Shown here: positions 15,596-24,523 of the stretch, in pieces
Layout: every line of letters begins with the position of its first letter
Numbering within the stretch: position 1 is the stretch's first letter
Source: a virus
Virus record (IMG/VR): IMGVR_UViG_3300022929_000189
Span: 1 to 24,877 of that record
Direction: 5' to 3' (one strand)
Length of the DNA: 24,877 nucleotides
Notes under the pieces: model-generated
What the model saw: the letters and a program-made list of their open reading frames with translations, nothing else
Databases searched by the model: none
What the model was told of the DNA's origin: nothing
Translations under genes and position numbers: made by a program

Positions 15596-15850
15596 ATGCT
15601 TAGTCATAAAGAGGGAAGTAAACTGCACGATAAGATAGCAGGTGCGTACAGTCACAGCATAGATATGATGGAGGATATGGGGGAGTACAACGCTGCTCTT
15701 CTTAACGGTGCTAGACAGTTCCTGAAAGATAACAACGTTACTATGGACAGCGGTGTAGGTACTCCTTTGGAAGCATTAGATCATCAATTAAAAGCGTTAC
15801 CATTTGAAGAAGAAGAACATCGAGATACCACCCAAGCTACGGGACTTTAG
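15596..15850 (+). CDS. Terminase small subunit (T7 gp18-like)
   Basis: 84 aa (T7 gp18: 89). It recognises the packaging site on the concatemer and loads the large subunit. The visible signature is ARQFLKDNNVTMD (about 42-54) followed by a Leu-rich acidic C-terminus (LEALDHQLKALPFEEEE), typical of small terminases of this group. The ATG at 15596 has no Shine-Dalgarno sequence; the leader reads AATATAACATC. The last 47 nt overlap the large terminase gene in another frame. It follows the intrinsic terminator, so expression needs either read-through or a promoter in 15560-15595; CCACTAGTAATATAAC there is the only candidate and is weak. Confidence 0.85.
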   Translation: MLSHKEGSKLHDKIAGAYSHSIDMMEDMGEYNAALLNGARQFLKDNNVTMDSGVGTPLEALDHQLKALPFEEEEHRDTTQATGL

Positions 15851-17498
15851 AAACTTTCTATACTTAGTTTGGAAACACCTTAATCTTCCTGATCCTACCG
15901 AGCTACAGTACGACATAGCGGAGTACCTGCAACACGGTCCGAAGCGGTCTGTTATTATGGCGTTCCGGGGAGTAGGTAAGTCTTGGATAACGTCTGCCTT
16001 TGTAGTACATCAGCTACTGCTGGACCCATCTAAGAACATACTTGTTGTATCAGCTAGTAAGAATAGATCGGATGACTTCTCTACATTTACCTTGCGAATC
16101 ATTCAGGAGATTCCCATTTTACAAGGATTAAAGCCATCAGAGAACCAACGATTCAGTAAGATTGCATTTGATGTCGGACCTGCTCCTGCCTCTCACGCTC
16201 CCTCTGTTAAGTCCCTTGGTATATCGTCACAGCTCACCGGTTCCCGTGCAGACATCATCGTAGCGGACGACGTGGAGGTAGCTAATAACAGTGCTACCCA
16301 AGGTATGAGGGATAAGCTGGATGAACAAGTAAAAGAGTTCGACGCTATCGTTAAACCCTTAGACTCCTCCCGTATCATCTTTCTTGGTACTCCACAGTGT
16401 GAGGACTCTATATATAACAAACTGCGAGAAAGGGGCTACAAGAGCCGTATATGGCCTTCAGAGTATCCAGACGATACAGAGGCTACTAACAACTACGGAA
16501 ACGATCTAGCACCTCTTATAGAGGATAACATAACTCCTGACACAATTGGTACCTCTACAGAACCCTTACGGTTCACTGATCTCGACTTAGAAGAACGTAA
16601 GATGAGCTACGGTCGTACCGGGTACGCTCTTCAGTTCATGTTGAACCCTAAGCTGTCTGATGCTGATCGATACCCATTAAAGATAAACGATTTGATTATA
16701 TCTGATGTGGATGTAGACTTAGCTCCTGAAAAGATCGTGTGGTCCTCTGACCCGGATAACACAGATAGAGAGTTACCTAATGTCGGATTGGCGGGGGATC
16801 GATTCAGGCGTCCCTCTTCCACCGTAGGAGATATGATACCGTACAGCGGCTCTGTGTTATCTATTGACCCATCAGGACGGGGTAAGGACGAGACAGGGTA
16901 CGCTGTGGTAAAGATGCTTAACGGACAACTATACGTACCTGATGCTGGTGGTATACGGGGCGGTTACGACGAGAAGACGTTGAAACAACTGGTAGCTATA
17001 GCAAAGGATAACAAAGTTAATATCGTTGTTATAGAGTCTAACTTTGGAGACGGTATGTTTATGGAGCTGATTAAACCTCTGTTTAGAACAACATATCCTG
17101 TAACTATAGAAGAAGTACGTCATAACAAACAAAAGGAACTTCGTATCGTTGATGTATTGGAACCTGTACTTAACGCTCATAGACTTGTTGTAGACCCTTC
17201 TGTTATAACAAATGATTACAGATCAGCTCTTAGCTATCCTATAGAACAACAAACTAGATATATGTTAATGTATCAGCTATCAAGGATAACAAGAGATAAA
17301 GGATCACTGGTACACGATGACCGTCTTGACGCCCTATCAATCGCTGTTGGTTATTGGACGCAGCAGATGGCTGCTAATGCAGACCAATCGATGGTTGATA
17401 GACAACAAGAACTACTTCATAAAGAACTACAAGACTTCACTGATAGCTTCTATAAGCGTAATAACAAAGCTAGAGCTGTCACTTGGATGCAGTCGTAG
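15804..17498 (+). CDS. Terminase large subunit (T7 gp19-like)
   Basis: Packaging ATPase and nuclease, 564 aa (T7 gp19: 586). Walker A is AFRGVGKS (53-60) and Walker B is IIVADDVE (151-158). The QLTGSRAD just before it and FLGTPQ near 194 are as in T7. The RNase H-like nuclease has IDPSGRGKDETGYAV with Asp355, ESNFGDGMF with Glu411, and HDDRLDAL with Asp505/Asp506/Asp509. The ATPase-to-nuclease linker keeps LQFMLNPKLSDADRYPL. The start is a TTG inside the small terminase. No ATG occurs before Walker A, and KLRDFRNFLYLVWKHLNLP aligns with T7 LKGDFVAFLFVLWKALNLP, so reading must begin upstream of residue 11. Expression is probably coupled to the small subunit. No hairpin terminator is evident after its stop. 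Confidence 0.95.
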   Translation: MKKKNIEIPPKLRDFRNFLYLVWKHLNLPDPTELQYDIAEYLQHGPKRSVIMAFRGVGKSWITSAFVVHQLLLDPSKNILVVSASKNRSDDFSTFTLRIIQEIPILQGLKPSENQRFSKIAFDVGPAPASHAPSVKSLGISSQLTGSRADIIVADDVEVANNSATQGMRDKLDEQVKEFDAIVKPLDSSRIIFLGTPQCEDSIYNKLRERGYKSRIWPSEYPDDTEATNNYGNDLAPLIEDNITPDTIGTSTEPLRFTDLDLEERKMSYGRTGYALQFMLNPKLSDADRYPLKINDLIISDVDVDLAPEKIVWSSDPDNTDRELPNVGLAGDRFRRPSSTVGDMIPYSGSVLSIDPSGRGKDETGYAVVKMLNGQLYVPDAGGIRGGYDEKTLKQLVAIAKDNKVNIVVIESNFGDGMFMELIKPLFRTTYPVTIEEVRHNKQKELRIVDVLEPVLNAHRLVVDPSVITNDYRSALSYPIEQQTRYMLMYQLSRITRDKGSLVHDDRLDALSIAVGYWTQQMAANADQSMVDRQQELLHKELQDFTDSFYKRNNKARAVTWMQS

Positions 17499-17542
17499 TC
17501 GCTATTGCTCCTACTCCTTTATAATAACAAACCTTTAGTAGT

Positions 17543-17554
17543 CTTATATATAAG
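17543..17554. repeat. 12-nt perfect palindrome
   Basis: CTTATATATAAG is self-complementary and lies 45 nt after the TerL stop. It could be a weak hairpin, a protein binding site or a melting site. Function is unknown. Confidence 0.5.
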
Positions 17555-17611
17555 GTGATGAGGTAGTTAGTGTATTTACACCGACTATAGCTATACCTTG
17601 AAATACTAAAG

Positions 17612-17661
17612 TTAAGGTTTAGATTTACTAGGTCTACGTCTGTAGACACACCTATCCTTAA
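17612..17661. repeat. Nested inverted repeats (stem-loop)
   Basis: The outer arms are TTAAGG (17612-17617) and CCTTAA (17656-17661). The inner arms are GTCTAC (17632-17637) and GTAGAC (17642-17647) around a GTCT loop. TAGG and CCTA (17629-17632 and 17651-17654) can add a middle step. There is no T run, so this is not a standard terminator. It may be a processing, packaging or origin structure. Confidence 0.5.
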
Positions 17662-18040
17662 AAGACCTATTTAACGATCACGTTATCAATCTGTAAGTAT
17701 TAGAGGTTATTGCGAAAGAACGGAGTATGAGCAATAATAACAACGGATGTATTGATCTGATGGAGCTGTAGTATTTGTATGGGAATGTTATGTAACGAAG
17801 TGGAATAAAATAGCTACAACTAGCGTCAGCTAATGTAACCTCTGTTGATGCTATTGCTTATTGCTTATCTATATTACCTATTAAGAATACCTATCGGTAT
17901 GAGACCTCTTAAACGTACGTCTATAACGACTATCTAAATCTCATTATTATAACTTTCTCAAGCCGAAGGGACTCTGTCAATACTAAATGAAAAAACATCA
18001 GTAAGTAAGAGGGGTACAAGAGGGTATTAGATTTACCTAT
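17650..18040 (+). repeat. Dispersed ACCTAT direct repeats
   Basis: ACCTAT occurs at 17650-17655, 17665-17670, 17876-17881, 17889-17894 and 18035-18040, with a near copy ACCTCT at 17904-17909. Most are followed within a few bases by TAA or TTAA. Five exact copies of one hexamer in under 400 nt of AT-rich DNA is more than chance would give. T7 carries short repeat arrays (CCTAAAG) beside its terminal repeats, which makes a genome-end function reasonable but unproven. Confidence 0.5.
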
Positions 18041-18076
18041 CATTTAATCTCATTTATTGTTATACTACTACTAGTG

Positions 18077-18313
18077 ATGAATATCAACGATCAAACAGAT
18101 ACATTCCAGTACGAACTAGCTAAGCTGGTATATAGGTTCAAGAGCGAATACGATCTTAACGATTACACTATAGCCGGATGCTTAGACTTCTGTAAGCTGT
18201 CAGTGTTGACGGAAACAGATGATGTTATCTTTACTGGAGAACTAACAACAGAGGACACCGATGAAGAAGAAGACACCGAAGACGACCACAACGACATCTA
18301 CCCAACCTTCTAG
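18077..18313 (+). CDS. Hypothetical protein with acidic tail, 78 aa
   Basis: The N-terminal part (QYELAKLVYRFKSEYDLNDYTIAGCLDFCKL) looks like a folded helical domain of a kind I have seen in small marine-phage proteins without known function. The last 22 residues hold 11 Asp/Glu and end IYPTF. An acidic tail with a C-terminal aromatic is the partner-binding feature of SSB and T7 gp2.5, so a role at the replication machinery is possible but not shown. ATG 18077 is preferred to the adjacent GTG 18074. No Shine-Dalgarno sequence is seen; an (ACT)3 run lies just upstream. It occupies the position of T7 gene 19.5 and overlaps the next gene by 53 nt. Confidence 0.65.
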   Translation: MNINDQTDTFQYELAKLVYRFKSEYDLNDYTIAGCLDFCKLSVLTETDDVIFTGELTTEDTDEEEDTEDDHNDIYPTF

Positions 18314-18524
18314 TCGCTCCGCTTCGACGGCTGCTCTAAACGATCTTCCTGTTATACGAATCGTGTCGGAGGAGGAAGAGATGCACGTAAAGCTCGGGCT
18401 GGAGATGGAAGACACAACACACGATATGCTTGTTAAATGGGGCAAAGAGGTAGCATCCGATGAAGACTATATAGAGATCGCTGTGAGGGCGGGGTTAAAG
18501 CACCTTATATCAAGCGATAAGTAG
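18261..18524 (+). CDS. Hypothetical protein overlapping the acidic tail of its neighbour, 87 aa
   Basis: I do not recognise it. The N-terminus (MKKKTPKTTTTTSTQPSSRS) is basic and Thr/Ser-rich and probably disordered. From about residue 28 there is a likely folded helical part (VIRIVSEEEEMHVKLGLEME ... EIAVRAGLKHLI). The ATG at 18261 is preceded by GAGGA with good spacing, which supports translation. Its first 53 nt are shared, in another frame, with the acid tail of the upstream gene: the same GAAGAAGAAGA stretch gives Glu runs in one frame and Lys runs in the other. No TM segment or enzyme motif is seen. Confidence 0.65.
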   Translation: MKKKTPKTTTTTSTQPSSRSASTAALNDLPVIRIVSEEEEMHVKLGLEMEDTTHDMLVKWGKEVASDEDYIEIAVRAGLKHLISSDK

Positions 18525-18587
18525 CACTTTGCTACAGCTGTTCAAAAGGTTTCGATAGAAAAATCTGAGACGTCGACGCTATATACG

Positions 18588-18620
18588 CCCGCAAGTTTTT
18601 ACCCCGTGTGTACCCGCAAG
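18588..18620 (+). repeat. CCCGCAAG direct repeat pair, 25-nt period
   Basis: CCCGCAAG occurs at 18588-18595 and 18613-18620. Both copies follow an AC or ACG step and are followed by T-rich DNA. The function is unknown; it could be a paired protein site. Confidence 0.4.
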
Positions 18621-18722
18621 ATTCTTATAGGGGAGGGGATGTTATTTCGCATAACACATATTATGTCTAATTACAAGTGCTTGGTTATCAATGACTTAGT
18701 GTTTTTACTGCAGTTTTCGGGA

Positions 18723-18885
18723 CGATCAAGATCAGCTTGACACGAGTAAAGCACATCAGTAAAGCTTGCCAGGTTGTTATCGATCAAAGCTGGTAATGAT
18801 GTCGCCCTTATTGCAATTTGCTTGCATTAGTGTTTTTCTTTTTTCGCGTTCCACTATCGATCATCAAAGCGATCATAAACGATCA
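18723..18885. repeat. CGATCA iteron-like cluster
   Basis: Copies lie at 18723, 18781, 18858, 18870 and 18880. The last three are 12 and 10 nt apart, close to one helical turn. Two of them sit in TATCGATCA. All contain GATC, a Dam-type site. Phased short repeats next to an AT-rich dyad are typical of origins or operators. Which of the two this is cannot be told from sequence. Confidence 0.5.
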
Positions 18886-18990
18886 TTAGTAATTCTGCTA
18901 TCAATACCGCTTAAACACTAGCACTTAGCATTTTCATTCTCATAAACTATTGTTATTCAATGCTTTAGAGTCGAGATTGATTTGACTTAG

Positions 18991-18996
18991 TATAAT
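18991..18996 (+). promoter_or_regulatory. Candidate -10 box of a host-type early promoter
   Basis: A perfect TATAAT lies about 130 nt before the first early gene. TTGACT lies only 3 nt upstream, which is too close, and no good -35 sits at 16-19 nt, so a promoter here would be weak or activator-dependent. It is listed because early genes need a host promoter in this gap. Confidence 0.3.
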
Positions 18997-19008
18997 AGGT
19001 GAAACTTT

Positions 19009-19061
19009 TTTATTTTTTATTTCGCTGATTATCAACGATTTACAGCAACTTAAAAAATAAA
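19009..19061. repeat. 11-bp AT inverted repeat with inner GCTG/CAGC dyad
   Basis: TTTATTTTTTA (19009-19019) pairs perfectly with TAAAAAATAAA (19051-19061). Inside the loop, GCTG (19024-19027) can pair with CAGC (19043-19046). There is no terminal T tract after the right arm, so it is not an intrinsic terminator on the + strand. It could be a DNA unwinding element, a repressor site or a 5'-UTR stem. Confidence 0.55.
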
Positions 19062-19127
19062 GTTTGCATTATCTTGAGGTTCTGTCAGATGTTATCGGCA
19101 TTAACCTAAACCATATATATCTATATC

Positions 19128-19538
19128 ATGAAAGTAACAATATCACAGAACCTATTATCATTCGTCAGTAACGCTTATTCGGACTTAGATCATCCCTTAA
19201 AGCCTAGTCACACAGAGATCGATTTAATGAAGGGACATTGGGTGCTAGCAAACATAGTAATGGGTGACTTCATGGAAACCACCGCAGAAGATCAAGTGGC
19301 TATTTTCTCAGAACTTAGAGCCTTAAAAGCTACCCTTCAAACATTTGAGAACCACGAGCTTAGATCAGAGTACACAAAGTTTGACGAAATCGACACTAGG
19401 AGGCTTTTGGATTGGTACAGAACAGATCGGCAAAGAAAGTTCAGAACTAGCGATACTCTAAGAACTATGGCTAAGGATGGCAGGTTCAATAAGATCGGGG
19501 CAGAAATAATCGCATTACCATCACCTAAGATTGCATAA
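19128..19538 (+). CDS. First early gene, hypothetical, 136 aa
   Basis: I do not recognise it. It appears soluble and mostly helical, with the visible stretches SYSDLDHPLKPSHTEIDLM-like near the start (actual first residues MKVTISQNLLSFVSNAYSDL) and DTRRLLDWYRTDRQRKFRTS near residues 89-108. Its position as the first gene after the long control region makes it an analogue in place of T7 0.3, where host-takeover or anti-restriction proteins are usual. There is no sequence likeness to Ocr. No Shine-Dalgarno sequence is present; the leader ends in CTATATC. The next gene starts 4 nt after its stop. Confidence 0.75.
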   Translation: MKVTISQNLLSFVSNAYSDLDHPLKPSHTEIDLMKGHWVLANIVMGDFMETTAEDQVAIFSELRALKATLQTFENHELRSEYTKFDEIDTRRLLDWYRTDRQRKFRTSDTLRTMAKDGRFNKIGAEIIALPSPKIA

Positions 19539-19542
19539 GACC

Positions 19543-19821
19543 ATGAACATCAAACCATCACTAATAACAAGATTGCACAAGGGTTATATCAAGCGTATCC
19601 ATGTCAATCAGCATATCATCAAAGCTAATAAAAAGCACGACCGCAACGATCCAGTTCTGACGATCAAGACGACAGGCGACAACATCAAAGCAAACCATAT
19701 CATGATCGGGGAAAACGTCAGACTTTGTTATTCTCCTGAATCGCCATTGGCTTGTGGAGCTACGATTTGGATTGAAACAACAGAACAAGTCTCTATACAA
19801 GATTGGCACGAACATTACTAA
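19543..19821 (+). CDS. Conserved early hypothetical protein with HVNQH motif, 92 aa
   Basis: It contains RIHVNQHIIKANKKHDRNDP, then LTIKTTGDNIKAN and YSPESPLACGATIWIETTEQ. Proteins with the same order (HVNQH.IK.N.KH ... Y.P..PL.CGA..WIET) recur in marine cyano- and other phages and are, as far as I know, uncharacterised. It is a compact, probably beta-rich fold. His22 and His26 (first HVNQH), His35 and Cys74 could bind a metal but no standard spacing is present. ATG 19543 is preferred to an in-frame TTG at 19531 inside the previous gene. The 50-nt gap after it is CA-rich with two ACCAATAA copies. Confidence 0.8.
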   Translation: MNIKPSLITRLHKGYIKRIHVNQHIIKANKKHDRNDPVLTIKTTGDNIKANHIMIGENVRLCYSPESPLACGATIWIETTEQVSIQDWHEHY

Positions 19822-21982: not shown

Positions 21983-22184
21983 CGATTGGGGTGTGTGTGT
22001 CCGGCACGACATAGACTGGGGAAAGGTAGACCCGAAAGCGATACACGAGGGATACCAACTCTTCTGGAATAACACCGAGGTGAAACACTTTGAGCGGGAT
22101 GAGGAGGGCAATTTAGTAGCTGTCCGCACAGACATCCAACGGATGAAACCGAAGACGACCTTTGATAACTTCGAGAACCTATGA
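21966..22184 (+). CDS. Early hypothetical protein before RNA polymerase, 72 aa
   Basis: It starts with GTG after AGAGGAG, with good spacing. MEESFSDWGVCVRHDIDWGK and GYQLFWNNTEVKHFERDEEG suggest a small beta-rich soluble protein; Cys, His and Trp are frequent but in no known metal motif. Its TGA overlaps the ATG of RNA polymerase (ATGA), so polymerase synthesis probably depends on its translation. Function unknown. Confidence 0.65.
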   Translation: MEESFSDWGVCVRHDIDWGKVDPKAIHEGYQLFWNNTEVKHFERDEEGNLVAVRTDIQRMKPKTTFDNFENL

Positions 22185-24523
22185 GTAACGAACACATAGC
22201 TAAGATGCGGGCGTGGGGGAAGACTGCGTATCGTAACCGACAAGCGAAACTTAGAGCAGAGGGTGAATCAAGTAAGACTGCCAGTGCTAAACGGATAATG
22301 AATAATATGTGTCCGAAACTAGGTAAGAGGGTGGAAGACTTTATTGATTACTACAACACCACACAAGCTACGATGCCGTTGTTTCTTACTTATGTGTGTG
22401 ACCTATGTCCGTATGAAATAGCTGTTATTGGTATGCGTACATTTCTTAACAACTTAGATCGTTCGTTAAGCATAAGTGCTATGAGTTTTAAAATTGGTAA
22501 AGCATTTGAGAATGAGGCACGATGGCAACAAGCTTTGGAAACATTTCACCCGAACAAGATTGACCTGTTAAAGTTGGATGACCGTAGTAAAGCGATGAAG
22601 CTCAAGCAGTTCTACGATTACGAAAACATGGAGCAACGCTTTCAATTGTGGGAACACAAACATAAGACTGCATTAGGTGCGTGGGTACTCGAAGAAATCC
22701 GCTTGCACACCGGTTTGTGGGAAGTGGGATACCGTGACTTGATGGGGCGTGGGACGATTACTTACGAACGCATTGTCTTACCGACTGCTGAGTTTACAGA
22801 TTGGGTAAAGAGGTTCGATGAGTGGAAGGAAGGTTCTCGTACATTTTGTATGGCACTTGAAAAGAAACCTATTGATTGGCACTTGTTAATTGGTGGGGGG
22901 TATCCGATTGAAGACTTACCACCCTTTAACTTTATAACAGGTAAGCCAAGGCAGTGGTTTGAACCGCACGCAAAGTCGTACACTCACGCCATGTCCGCAG
23001 TGAATAAGTTACAACAAGTACCTTGGAAGGTTAACCACGATATGCTTGATGTTATTATTAAATGTTGGGAGATGAAGCGTGTGGTTGGTAACATCCCAGA
23101 GTTTGGCGAGATTGATGAGCAACCGAGGTACACTGGTGATTGTCCGCACGAGTTACGGGCTTGGAAGTTAAAACAAAAAGACATTAAGACATCCAATGTA
23201 GCTACGAAGAGTAAGCGTTACCTGACCTGCAAGATTATACACCTTGCTAAGTTATATAAGACATACGATAAGTTATATTTTCCACACCGTAGTGATTACC
23301 GAGGTAGATTGTACGCTATACCATTCTTTCTCCATCCGCAGGGCAGTGACTTAGCGAAGAGCTTACTTGACTTTCATAACGGTCAGCAAGTGGTTGATGA
23401 GGAAGACTTGGAGGCTGTACTTATACACGGTGCGAATACATTTGGTGTAAAGGGTACGAGAGCGGAGAGACTAGAGTGGGTAGGTAAGAGGCAGAACTTT
23501 ATATTGGAAGCTGCGGAGAATCCACACGGTGATGATTGGTGGACAGAAGCAAGTGATCCGTTCTCATTCTTACGCTTTTGTTTTGAGTTTAAGAAGTTTA
23601 AAGAAGAAGGATACGGGTACACAAGTTACTTACCTGTTCGTCAAGACTGTAGTAATAATGGTATGCAGATACTGAGTTTGTTACTACGGGACAAAGAGAC
23701 TGGGAGGATGTGTAACTTAGTAGAGGAGGACAGGGTAAACGACTTGTATCAAGAGTTAGCTGACCGTGTGTACAATGTACTCAAGAAGGATGGCGGAGCG
23801 ATTGCACGTGGGTGGATGCGTTATGGATTTAATCGTAAGATGGCAAAGCTTGCAATCATGAACCGACCTTACGGAGCTACGCACTATAACTATCTACAGG
23901 ATTTGTTTTATTCGATAGGTATTAATCATCCGTGGGAATCCACAGCCGAACAACTCACTGCTTGTATATGGTTGAGTAAGATTGTAAACAAGATAGCGGA
24001 TGAGATGAGTGAGCCAGTCAAGCGAGTGATGAGGTTCTTAAAAGACAGTGTCCGTGCTTTACCCTCCGATCAACCTGTTACATGGACAACACCTACTGGA
24101 TTCAAAGTTGTACAATCTTTTAGAGAGAAGAAGCAAGTATGGGTGGACAGTGTGTTTGATAATACATACATCCGATTAAAGACTGAGGATTTAAGTGACG
24201 AGTTAGATAAAAAGGGTCAGTGCAACGCCGTCACTGCTAACTTTATCCACAGCTTAGACGCTTGTATCGTACACCAAGTAGCTAATGAGGTTGACTTTGA
24301 CCTCGCTACTATACATGACTGCTTTGTGACCCACGCTTCCAATGTACGCAGAATGAATACAATTGTACGAGAGATGTACGCAAAGACTTTCACCGTTGAT
24401 CTCCTAGGCGAGTTCCGTGCGGAGCAAATCAACAACAACCCAGAAGCAGTACTGCCTGATGTGCCGGAACTTGGAGACTTAGATGTGTCCGCAGTTAAAC
24501 GCCAGCAGTATCTGTTATCTTAA
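22181..24523 (+). CDS. Phage DNA-directed RNA polymerase (single-subunit, T7 family)
   Basis: 780 aa (T7: 883; the shortening is mainly N-terminal). Catalytic signatures are all present. DYRGR is at 372-376 (T7 DxxGR). Motif A is D489-CSNN-G494-M-Q496, matching T7 D537...G542-x-Q544. Motif B is R552-x3-K556-x7-Y564-G565, matching R627/K631/Y639/G640. ANFIHSLDA lies before motif C, and motif C is H712-D713 in IHDCF (T7 H811/D812). The enzyme takes over transcription of middle and late genes from phage promoters. It is the last gene of the early cluster and is coupled to the preceding gene by ATGA. The C-terminus ends in a phage-typical DLDVSAVKRQQYLLS. A 23-nt gap with AACAACCAATAACAC follows. 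Confidence 0.97.
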   Translation: MSNEHIAKMRAWGKTAYRNRQAKLRAEGESSKTASAKRIMNNMCPKLGKRVEDFIDYYNTTQATMPLFLTYVCDLCPYEIAVIGMRTFLNNLDRSLSISAMSFKIGKAFENEARWQQALETFHPNKIDLLKLDDRSKAMKLKQFYDYENMEQRFQLWEHKHKTALGAWVLEEIRLHTGLWEVGYRDLMGRGTITYERIVLPTAEFTDWVKRFDEWKEGSRTFCMALEKKPIDWHLLIGGGYPIEDLPPFNFITGKPRQWFEPHAKSYTHAMSAVNKLQQVPWKVNHDMLDVIIKCWEMKRVVGNIPEFGEIDEQPRYTGDCPHELRAWKLKQKDIKTSNVATKSKRYLTCKIIHLAKLYKTYDKLYFPHRSDYRGRLYAIPFFLHPQGSDLAKSLLDFHNGQQVVDEEDLEAVLIHGANTFGVKGTRAERLEWVGKRQNFILEAAENPHGDDWWTEASDPFSFLRFCFEFKKFKEEGYGYTSYLPVRQDCSNNGMQILSLLLRDKETGRMCNLVEEDRVNDLYQELADRVYNVLKKDGGAIARGWMRYGFNRKMAKLAIMNRPYGATHYNYLQDLFYSIGINHPWESTAEQLTACIWLSKIVNKIADEMSEPVKRVMRFLKDSVRALPSDQPVTWTTPTGFKVVQSFREKKQVWVDSVFDNTYIRLKTEDLSDELDKKGQCNAVTANFIHSLDACIVHQVANEVDFDLATIHDCFVTHASNVRRMNTIVREMYAKTFTVDLLGEFRAEQINNNPEAVLPDVPELGDLDVSAVKRQQYLLS

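Follow-up and report, generated by a model that had tools for sequence, protein, structure and literature searches.

The control region and its setting

The window, meaning the whole analysed stretch of 24,877 bases, is virus record IMGVR_UViG_3300022929_000189, linear according to its IMG/VR class. Its gene layout is T7-like, with a gp14-type internal virion protein, a T7-type tail fibre and a T7-type terminase (15804-17498), and 3' of the terminase gene lie small early ORFs followed by a single-subunit RNA polymerase (22181-24523). Among the matches listed from 50,697 phage records, the best full-length match of this polymerase was that of Pelagibacter phage HTVC109P (29.9%). The large terminase showed 65.5% identity with that of the uncultured phage MedDCM-OCT-S45-C18 (Ayaqvirus according to its record), about 60% with those of Roseobacter phages CRP-171, CRP-113 and CRP-125, and 56.5% with those of pelagiphages. 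The similarity of terminase and polymerase to their counterparts in Roseobacter phages and pelagiphages points to a marine alphaproteobacterium as the likely host. Terminase relatives are encoded by 581 stretches of viral_contigs, so the group is common; the best 80 of these 581 were kept.

The control region is a 603-nt gap between ORFs (18525-19127). The first ORF 3' of it (19128-19538, + strand, 136 aa) matched neither a Pfam nor a PHROGs family at E 0.001. Another AT-rich gap, 575 nt long, lies directly 3' of the terminase gene (17499-18073) and, apart from overlaps, has no + strand ORF of 60 aa listed. Behind the terminase genes, within the control region, is an ultraconserved box (ACCCGCAAGATTCTTATAGGG followed by GAGGGG; 18612-18638, + strand), which is among the best-conserved non-coding sequence here and whose 21-nt core (18612-18632) is found exactly in 69 stretches of viral_contigs. 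The gap also holds five copies of CGATCA, at 18723, 18781, 18858, 18870 and 18880, all on the + strand. These five copies within 163 nt, the GATC core in each of them and the start-to-start steps of 12 and 10 nt between the last three are as the first-pass annotation had described them. The gap sequence had no match in the phage collection, and BLAST of an array against phages and plasmids gave short, weak matches only.

Such a concentration of CGATCA is not expected by chance. Five copies in the gap compare with a mean of 0.15 in 5000 dinucleotide shuffles, none of which held five, and the whole window contains 17 copies on both strands against 7.81 expected (no shuffle in 100 was as high). 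When any non-simple 6-mer was allowed, five occurrences within 163 nt were seen in one of 2000 shuffles of the gap and three within 28 nt in 10 of 2000. The five copies do not form a single array. The last three, CGATCATCAAAG CGATCATAAA CGATCATTAG (18858-18889, + strand), are three direct units and constitute the phased array proper, whereas the two outlying copies sit in separate blocks. The copy at 18723-18728 (+ strand) lies in the block ...GATCAGCTTGACACGAGTAAAGCA..., a form re-found in L032 only. The copy at 18781-18786 (+ strand) lies in the block TTATCGATCAAAGC..., and genomes that lack the array can have this block as well; in the form GATCAAAGC it is present in nine regions of types lacking a CGATCA array (one of type H, two of G, three of F and three of C).

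Directly 5' of the array cassette is a pyrimidine-rich anchor (18830-18851, + strand), which, read by eye, is similar across several cassette types. The AT-rich dyad that had been noted 3' of the CGATCA copies was also found, with arms at 19009-19027 and 19043-19061 that are 84% complementary. This dyad block (19009-19061) recurs 3' of another cassette type in L058, L062, L071 and L081.

Phased arrays and their replacement in related phages

Related regions were gathered by the exact 21-nt box core, together with loci from other searches, and 67 were kept that were long enough and distinct over 270 nt, near-copies such as L032 and L083 included; two further regions, L144 and L161, were read outside the 67. 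A chain was defined as at least three C[GAT][ATC]TCA units at one- or two-turn steps, with steps of 9-12 and 20-23 nt permitted. Chains of this kind were present in 30 of the 67 regions, while each of six control motifs gave none. The mean helical period was 10.39 bp per turn (s.d. 0.17). Among the 114 chain steps, 77 were of 10 nt, 16 of 11 nt, six of 21 nt, 14 of 22 nt and one of 12 nt; the permitted steps of 9, 20 and 23 nt did not occur at all. The sole 12-nt step in the 30 regions is the one in the window, whose three units also place it in the shortest class, together with L056 and L095. Full arrays have five clear units; where a chain has six, one of them is a CGTTCA of the anchor. Of the 67 regions, 17 contained three or more exact CGATCA copies. 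A sister form is built of CGCTCA units at steps such as 10, 22, 10 and 10, its middle place being degenerate. Comparison of the matching gap in relatives, proposed in the first-pass annotation as a check, has thus shown the spacing to be conserved, and the helical phasing it described is real; it is much clearer in the relatives than in the window itself, where the steps of 12 and 10 are a poorer example. Two other observations were made during these comparisons. In L028, a 124,773-base contig, positions 947-968 agree exactly over 22 nt with the AGCTTGACACGAGTAAAGCA block, and the surrounding DNA looks GC-rich and unrelated. In the corresponding gap of the cultured relative Roseobacter phage CRP-125 (L332:1617-1937) there are four copies resembling TTCTGGTGGT, at steps of 98, 147 and 66 nt.

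Most of the other regions carry unrelated repeats at the same site, behind a similar pyrimidine-rich anchor. These alternatives include TCTCAA types, TGTCAC/GTGAC types, repeated TGTATA...TATACA palindromes, ATTGAAACG types, GTTCA/TGAAC types and one more. The array types (A-H, assigned by eye before the tests, with mixed arrays forced into one type) do not cluster on the tree of upstream DNA: a tree built from the 2 kb or so preceding the box (40 rows) required 28 type changes against a mean of 26.1 for shuffled labels, a comparison that crosses the box, where assemblers may have joined the ends of different strains. The RNA polymerase tree (29 rows), which lies on the array's own side and does not cross the box, gave 16 changes against a shuffled mean of 17.9, and a value as low was reached in 29 of 200 shuffles. 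On this tree the CGCTCA type alone clusters mildly (5 changes versus 7.2; 17 of 500). Further, the polymerases of the window and L003 are 96% identical and their cassettes are different. This contrast and the absence or weakness of clustering by type suggest frequent exchange of cassettes, although caution is needed because strains can be mixed in assemblies of metagenomes. Arrays also seem to recombine piecewise. In L144 (4000-4130), a composite is seen in which TCTCA-type sites pass without a break into an array of the TGTATA type, itself followed by a sigma-54 site, and ATTGAA- and TCTCAA-type sites are mixed in L092, L338 and L339.

Homology between relatives ends at the right edge of the box in four pairs (L039/L049, L075/L080, L068/L077 and L086/L084). 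L039 and L049, for instance, are 99.9% identical over the 2000 nt upstream, after which only the first 29 nt of the box are common. Several contigs begin or stop within some 20 nt of the box. The box, of which one strong copy was present in the records searched, may be a promoter for the phage polymerase or be situated close to an end of the genome. As a repeated phage promoter, TATAGGGGAGGGG was set aside because of this single strong copy.

Promoter signals and the search for a binding protein

The regions were scored for a -24/-12 sigma-54 element (TGGCAYR-N4-TTGCW, out of 12). Scores of 11 or 12 occurred in exactly the five of 67 regions with TGTCAC or TGTATA arrays (types D/E), where the element (TGGCATGGCGTTTGCT and kin) sits 3' of the array; the other 62 regions scored 10 or less, ten of them reaching 10. 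In G001, G003 and G012 the 12/12 site is the sole one of that score, and G002, G004 and G005 contain no site of 11 or more. Outside the 67, the more distant relative L144 combines a TGTATA array with a 12/12 site, and L161 a TGTCAC array with a 10/12 site, a score that by itself is at background level. The gap of the window (18525-19127) has no sigma-54 site, its best score being 10 or less; the window's sole 11/12 match is at 19804, in coding sequence beyond the gap, and is without the -12 GC. The first gene 3' of all five sigma-54 sites belongs to one small family with a KVDI(I/V)xAL motif at its end (examples are L040:7610-7825 and L068:2784-3041 and kin). It was considered as a type-specific partner and rejected, as a homologue is found in L061, which has a CGCTCA-type array.

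Matches to WATCAANNNNTTR, which we take to be the IHF consensus, were found at +55 to +130 from the box in 37 of the 67 regions, compared with a mean of 0.23 and a maximum of 2 in 100 shuffles preserving single-base composition only. In the window, one such match, TATCAATGACTTA, lies at 18686-18698 (+ strand) and a second (19030-19042) is carried by the loop of the dyad. In each of the four TGTCAC regions the array and the sigma-54 site have an IHF-consensus match between them; L100, the TGTATA region, has none in that interval. In the stretch from +290 to the first ORF, 19 of 60 regions contained an exact TTGACA, compared with 6% of shuffles (again preserving single-base composition only), whereas the five sigma-54 regions contained none. 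This distribution of TTGACA is counted in favour of the activator reading given below; that TTGACA makes a strong -35 element, atypical of activator-dependent promoters, is counted against it. No convincing promoter was recognised in the window, which also speaks against that reading.

A phage protein binding the array might be expected to change together with it, and protein identities within and between array types were compared accordingly. None of 12 upstream families (at least eight loci each) showed a convincing link, the lowest p value being 0.048 for a difference of 1.4 points. These families include two small proteins beside the box, the large terminase and the ORF before the terminase (a small subunit by position only); the latter two were rejected as array partners, since neither co-varies with cassette type. 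Approximately 58 downstream families (at least three loci each) were also compared, and the single strong hit was a frame that reads through the array itself. An eight-locus family gave a p value of 0.003 (difference 1.9 points), a 34-locus family 0.043 and a 12-locus family 0.077, and such values are expected because about 58 families were compared. Two three-member families occur with the CGATCA type only. Five long records representing different types have most of their genes in common outside the early region; within it, six ORFs lacked a homologue in the other four records.

The 87-aa protein adjoining the control region (18261-18524) has a strongly conserved core, LVKWGKE, and relatives in phages of several cassette types. 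It was first read as a ribbon-helix-helix protein and considered as a partner; it does not track array type and has no Pfam family, and its predicted fold, which contains helices only, is uninformative because the model is poor (pLDDT 61.9, pTM 0.27). A Pfam scan of 54 proteins (representatives of 45 of the 58 families plus nine window proteins) found 19 families, with no known transcription regulator or initiator among them, and the PF00589 integrase was present in none of 17 records. With no clearly co-varying gene among those compared and no regulator family, the array-binding protein is more likely not phage-encoded, although a novel small protein would be missed by these comparisons. Pattern searches of bacterial genomes did not place the arrays in any host. 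A search for four CGATCA units returned 62 stretches, of which 57 were the plain 10-10-10 form; the TGTATA-type array was found in none of 385 and none of 369 genomes of two bacterial classes.

Interpretation and comparison with known systems

The tightly spaced CGATCA copies may be a shortened version of a cassette that is exchanged among these T7-like marine phages and consists of protein-binding half-sites in phase with the helix. The cassette lies 3' of the conserved box that follows the terminase genes, and the first early genes come after it. A regulator, most likely encoded by the host, would occupy the half-sites in a head-to-tail row along a single helix face, as OmpR/PhoB-type proteins do, and, aided by DNA bending by IHF, would activate an early promoter read by the host RNA polymerase after DNA entry. 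Other genomes would carry arrays for other regulators. The common denominator of the regions is an array of binding-site type in the control region, at a distance of about 100-250 nt from the first early ORF on its 5' side. A sigma-54 promoter requires an upstream-bound activator, and the array in the TGTCAC and TGTATA types is therefore most simply read as a putative enhancer of such a promoter; by analogy with these types the CGATCA array of the window may also be an activator array. That the array binds protein is very probable, and control of early transcription is a good deal more probable than the contrary. The full statement, an exchangeable activator array for a host-transcribed early promoter bound by a host-encoded regulator, stands at close to an even chance. 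The array, its phasing and replacement, the sigma-54 and IHF motifs and the lack of a clearly co-varying phage gene among those compared are directly legible in the sequences; binding, activation, the host origin of the regulator, the use of IHF and the transfer of the sigma-54 logic to the window's own type are what we infer.

The first-pass annotation had favoured a replication origin and had offered an operator of an early repressor as an alternative. An operator fits better than an origin, because relatives carry other arrays at this position and two types are accompanied by a sigma-54 promoter and one of them also by an IHF-consensus match between array and promoter, which is promoter anatomy; a repressor is less favoured than an activator. 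As a repressor operator, the array would be bound by a protein from the host, from a prophage or satellite, or from a co-infecting phage; this protein would shut the early promoter, and cassette exchange would be a means of escape, as in temperate immunity regions. Operators are often repeated and phased, binding-site type does change fast among close relatives and, the sigma-54 types apart, the data would be equally compatible with a repressor. The two sigma-54 types need an activator, however, and with no linked repressor family recognised and no integrase in the 17 records, we consider this explanation unlikely. Iterons bound by an initiator beside an AT-rich unwinding region are improbable. 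The direct repeats do lie near an AT-rich dyad, and T7 origins are located near its promoters, but the array is replaced by unrelated arrays with no co-varying gene, its types are coupled to sigma-54 promoters and no initiator family was found in the 54 proteins (a novel initiator would be missed). An unrecognised phage-encoded regulator that changes together with the array, for example a small early protein, is given a similarly low probability. The early region is mosaic and rich in small ORFs of no recognised family, and the two CGATCA-only families and the low p values given above (0.003, 0.043 and 0.077) would be in keeping with it; against this, such values are expected from about 58 families, the strong hit is the array frame itself and the upstream families are likewise without a convincing link.

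The statement that T7 itself does not use iterons needs a caveat, as T7 (NC_001604) has a CCTAAAG array at a comparable place, at about 175-341, mostly with 13-nt steps and upstream of promoter A1 at 498. Because T7 has short repeats at this map position, beside its terminal repeat, a genome-end or packaging role for the phage array retains a slight probability. The place between terminase and early promoters is similar and homology breaks sharply at the box, which is suggestive only; yet the step is 10-11 nt rather than 13, the array lies approximately 220 nt downstream of the right end of the box, and neither the terminase large subunit nor the preceding ORF tracks cassette type. A methylation-sensitive site, also suggested at first, would be consistent with the GATC in every CGATCA copy of the window. 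That idea is weak, because CGCTCA units, which hold no GATC, occupy the same phased places in relatives; chance is disfavoured by the shuffles and by the absence of control motifs from all 67 regions, and these two explanations together are extremely improbable.

Returning to the host-regulated activator array, a broader proposal may be made, though we hold it tentatively and with some doubt. Members of this lytic T7-like marine group may share, at population level, a library of enhancer cassettes that respond to host regulators and can replace one another, a sigma-54- and IHF-dependent early promoter being part of some of them. Swapping would be fast enough for closely related phages to begin infection under different control circuits of the host, with frequency-dependent selection acting on them much as on antigens. 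If true, the first infection step in a well-represented group of marine viruses would be gated by whichever host regulator is active, and the choice of that regulator would be a swappable part. Why close lytic relatives can start infection in different host states would become testable, and an early promoter of a phage would be seen to employ sigma-54. The elements are of known kinds, and the new part would be the exchange of cassettes with sigma-54 promoters in a T7-like group. Searches of the open-access PMC literature at abstract level found no report of a T7-like group swapping phased arrays, two types of which have sigma-54 promoters, or of a phage early promoter that employs sigma-54. 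In a study of cultured Roseobacter Autographiviridae (PMC11092137), the words promoter, intergenic and repeat do not appear in the main text.

Several known systems resemble parts of this arrangement. Iteron origins of plasmids and lambdoid phages also have phased direct repeats beside AT-rich DNA; in the present phages no initiator gene was recognised, and the array type is exchanged without a co-varying gene. Temperate-phage immunity and operator regions likewise show different specificities at one locus in otherwise similar phages, whereas here no linked repressor was recognised in 54 proteins and none of 17 records held an integrase. The T7 CCTAAAG repeats are regular short direct repeats between a genome end and early promoters, as may be the case here, but the array in this T7-like group has another sequence and lacks 13-nt steps; we know of no exchange of the T7 repeats.

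Two bacterial systems are also comparable. In the Desulfovibrio orp operons, as described in PMC3897727, the order is activator site, IHF site and sigma-54 promoter, and the TGTCAC-type phage regions similarly present repeated sites, an IHF-consensus match and a -24/-12 element. The phage arrangement differs in lying in an early region as an exchangeable cassette, and it is absent from the window's own gap. OmpR/PhoB-type direct-repeat sites, such as the pho boxes listed in PMC10294691, have a parallel in the head-to-tail NNTCAY-type half-sites of the phage array, in its A-rich spacers and in its spacing of about one unit per helical turn. The pho box itself is TGTCA with an 11-nt step, whereas the array is made of CGATCA or CGCTCA at a mean step of 10.4 with up to five clear units, and because both unit and step differ the array is not called a pho box here.
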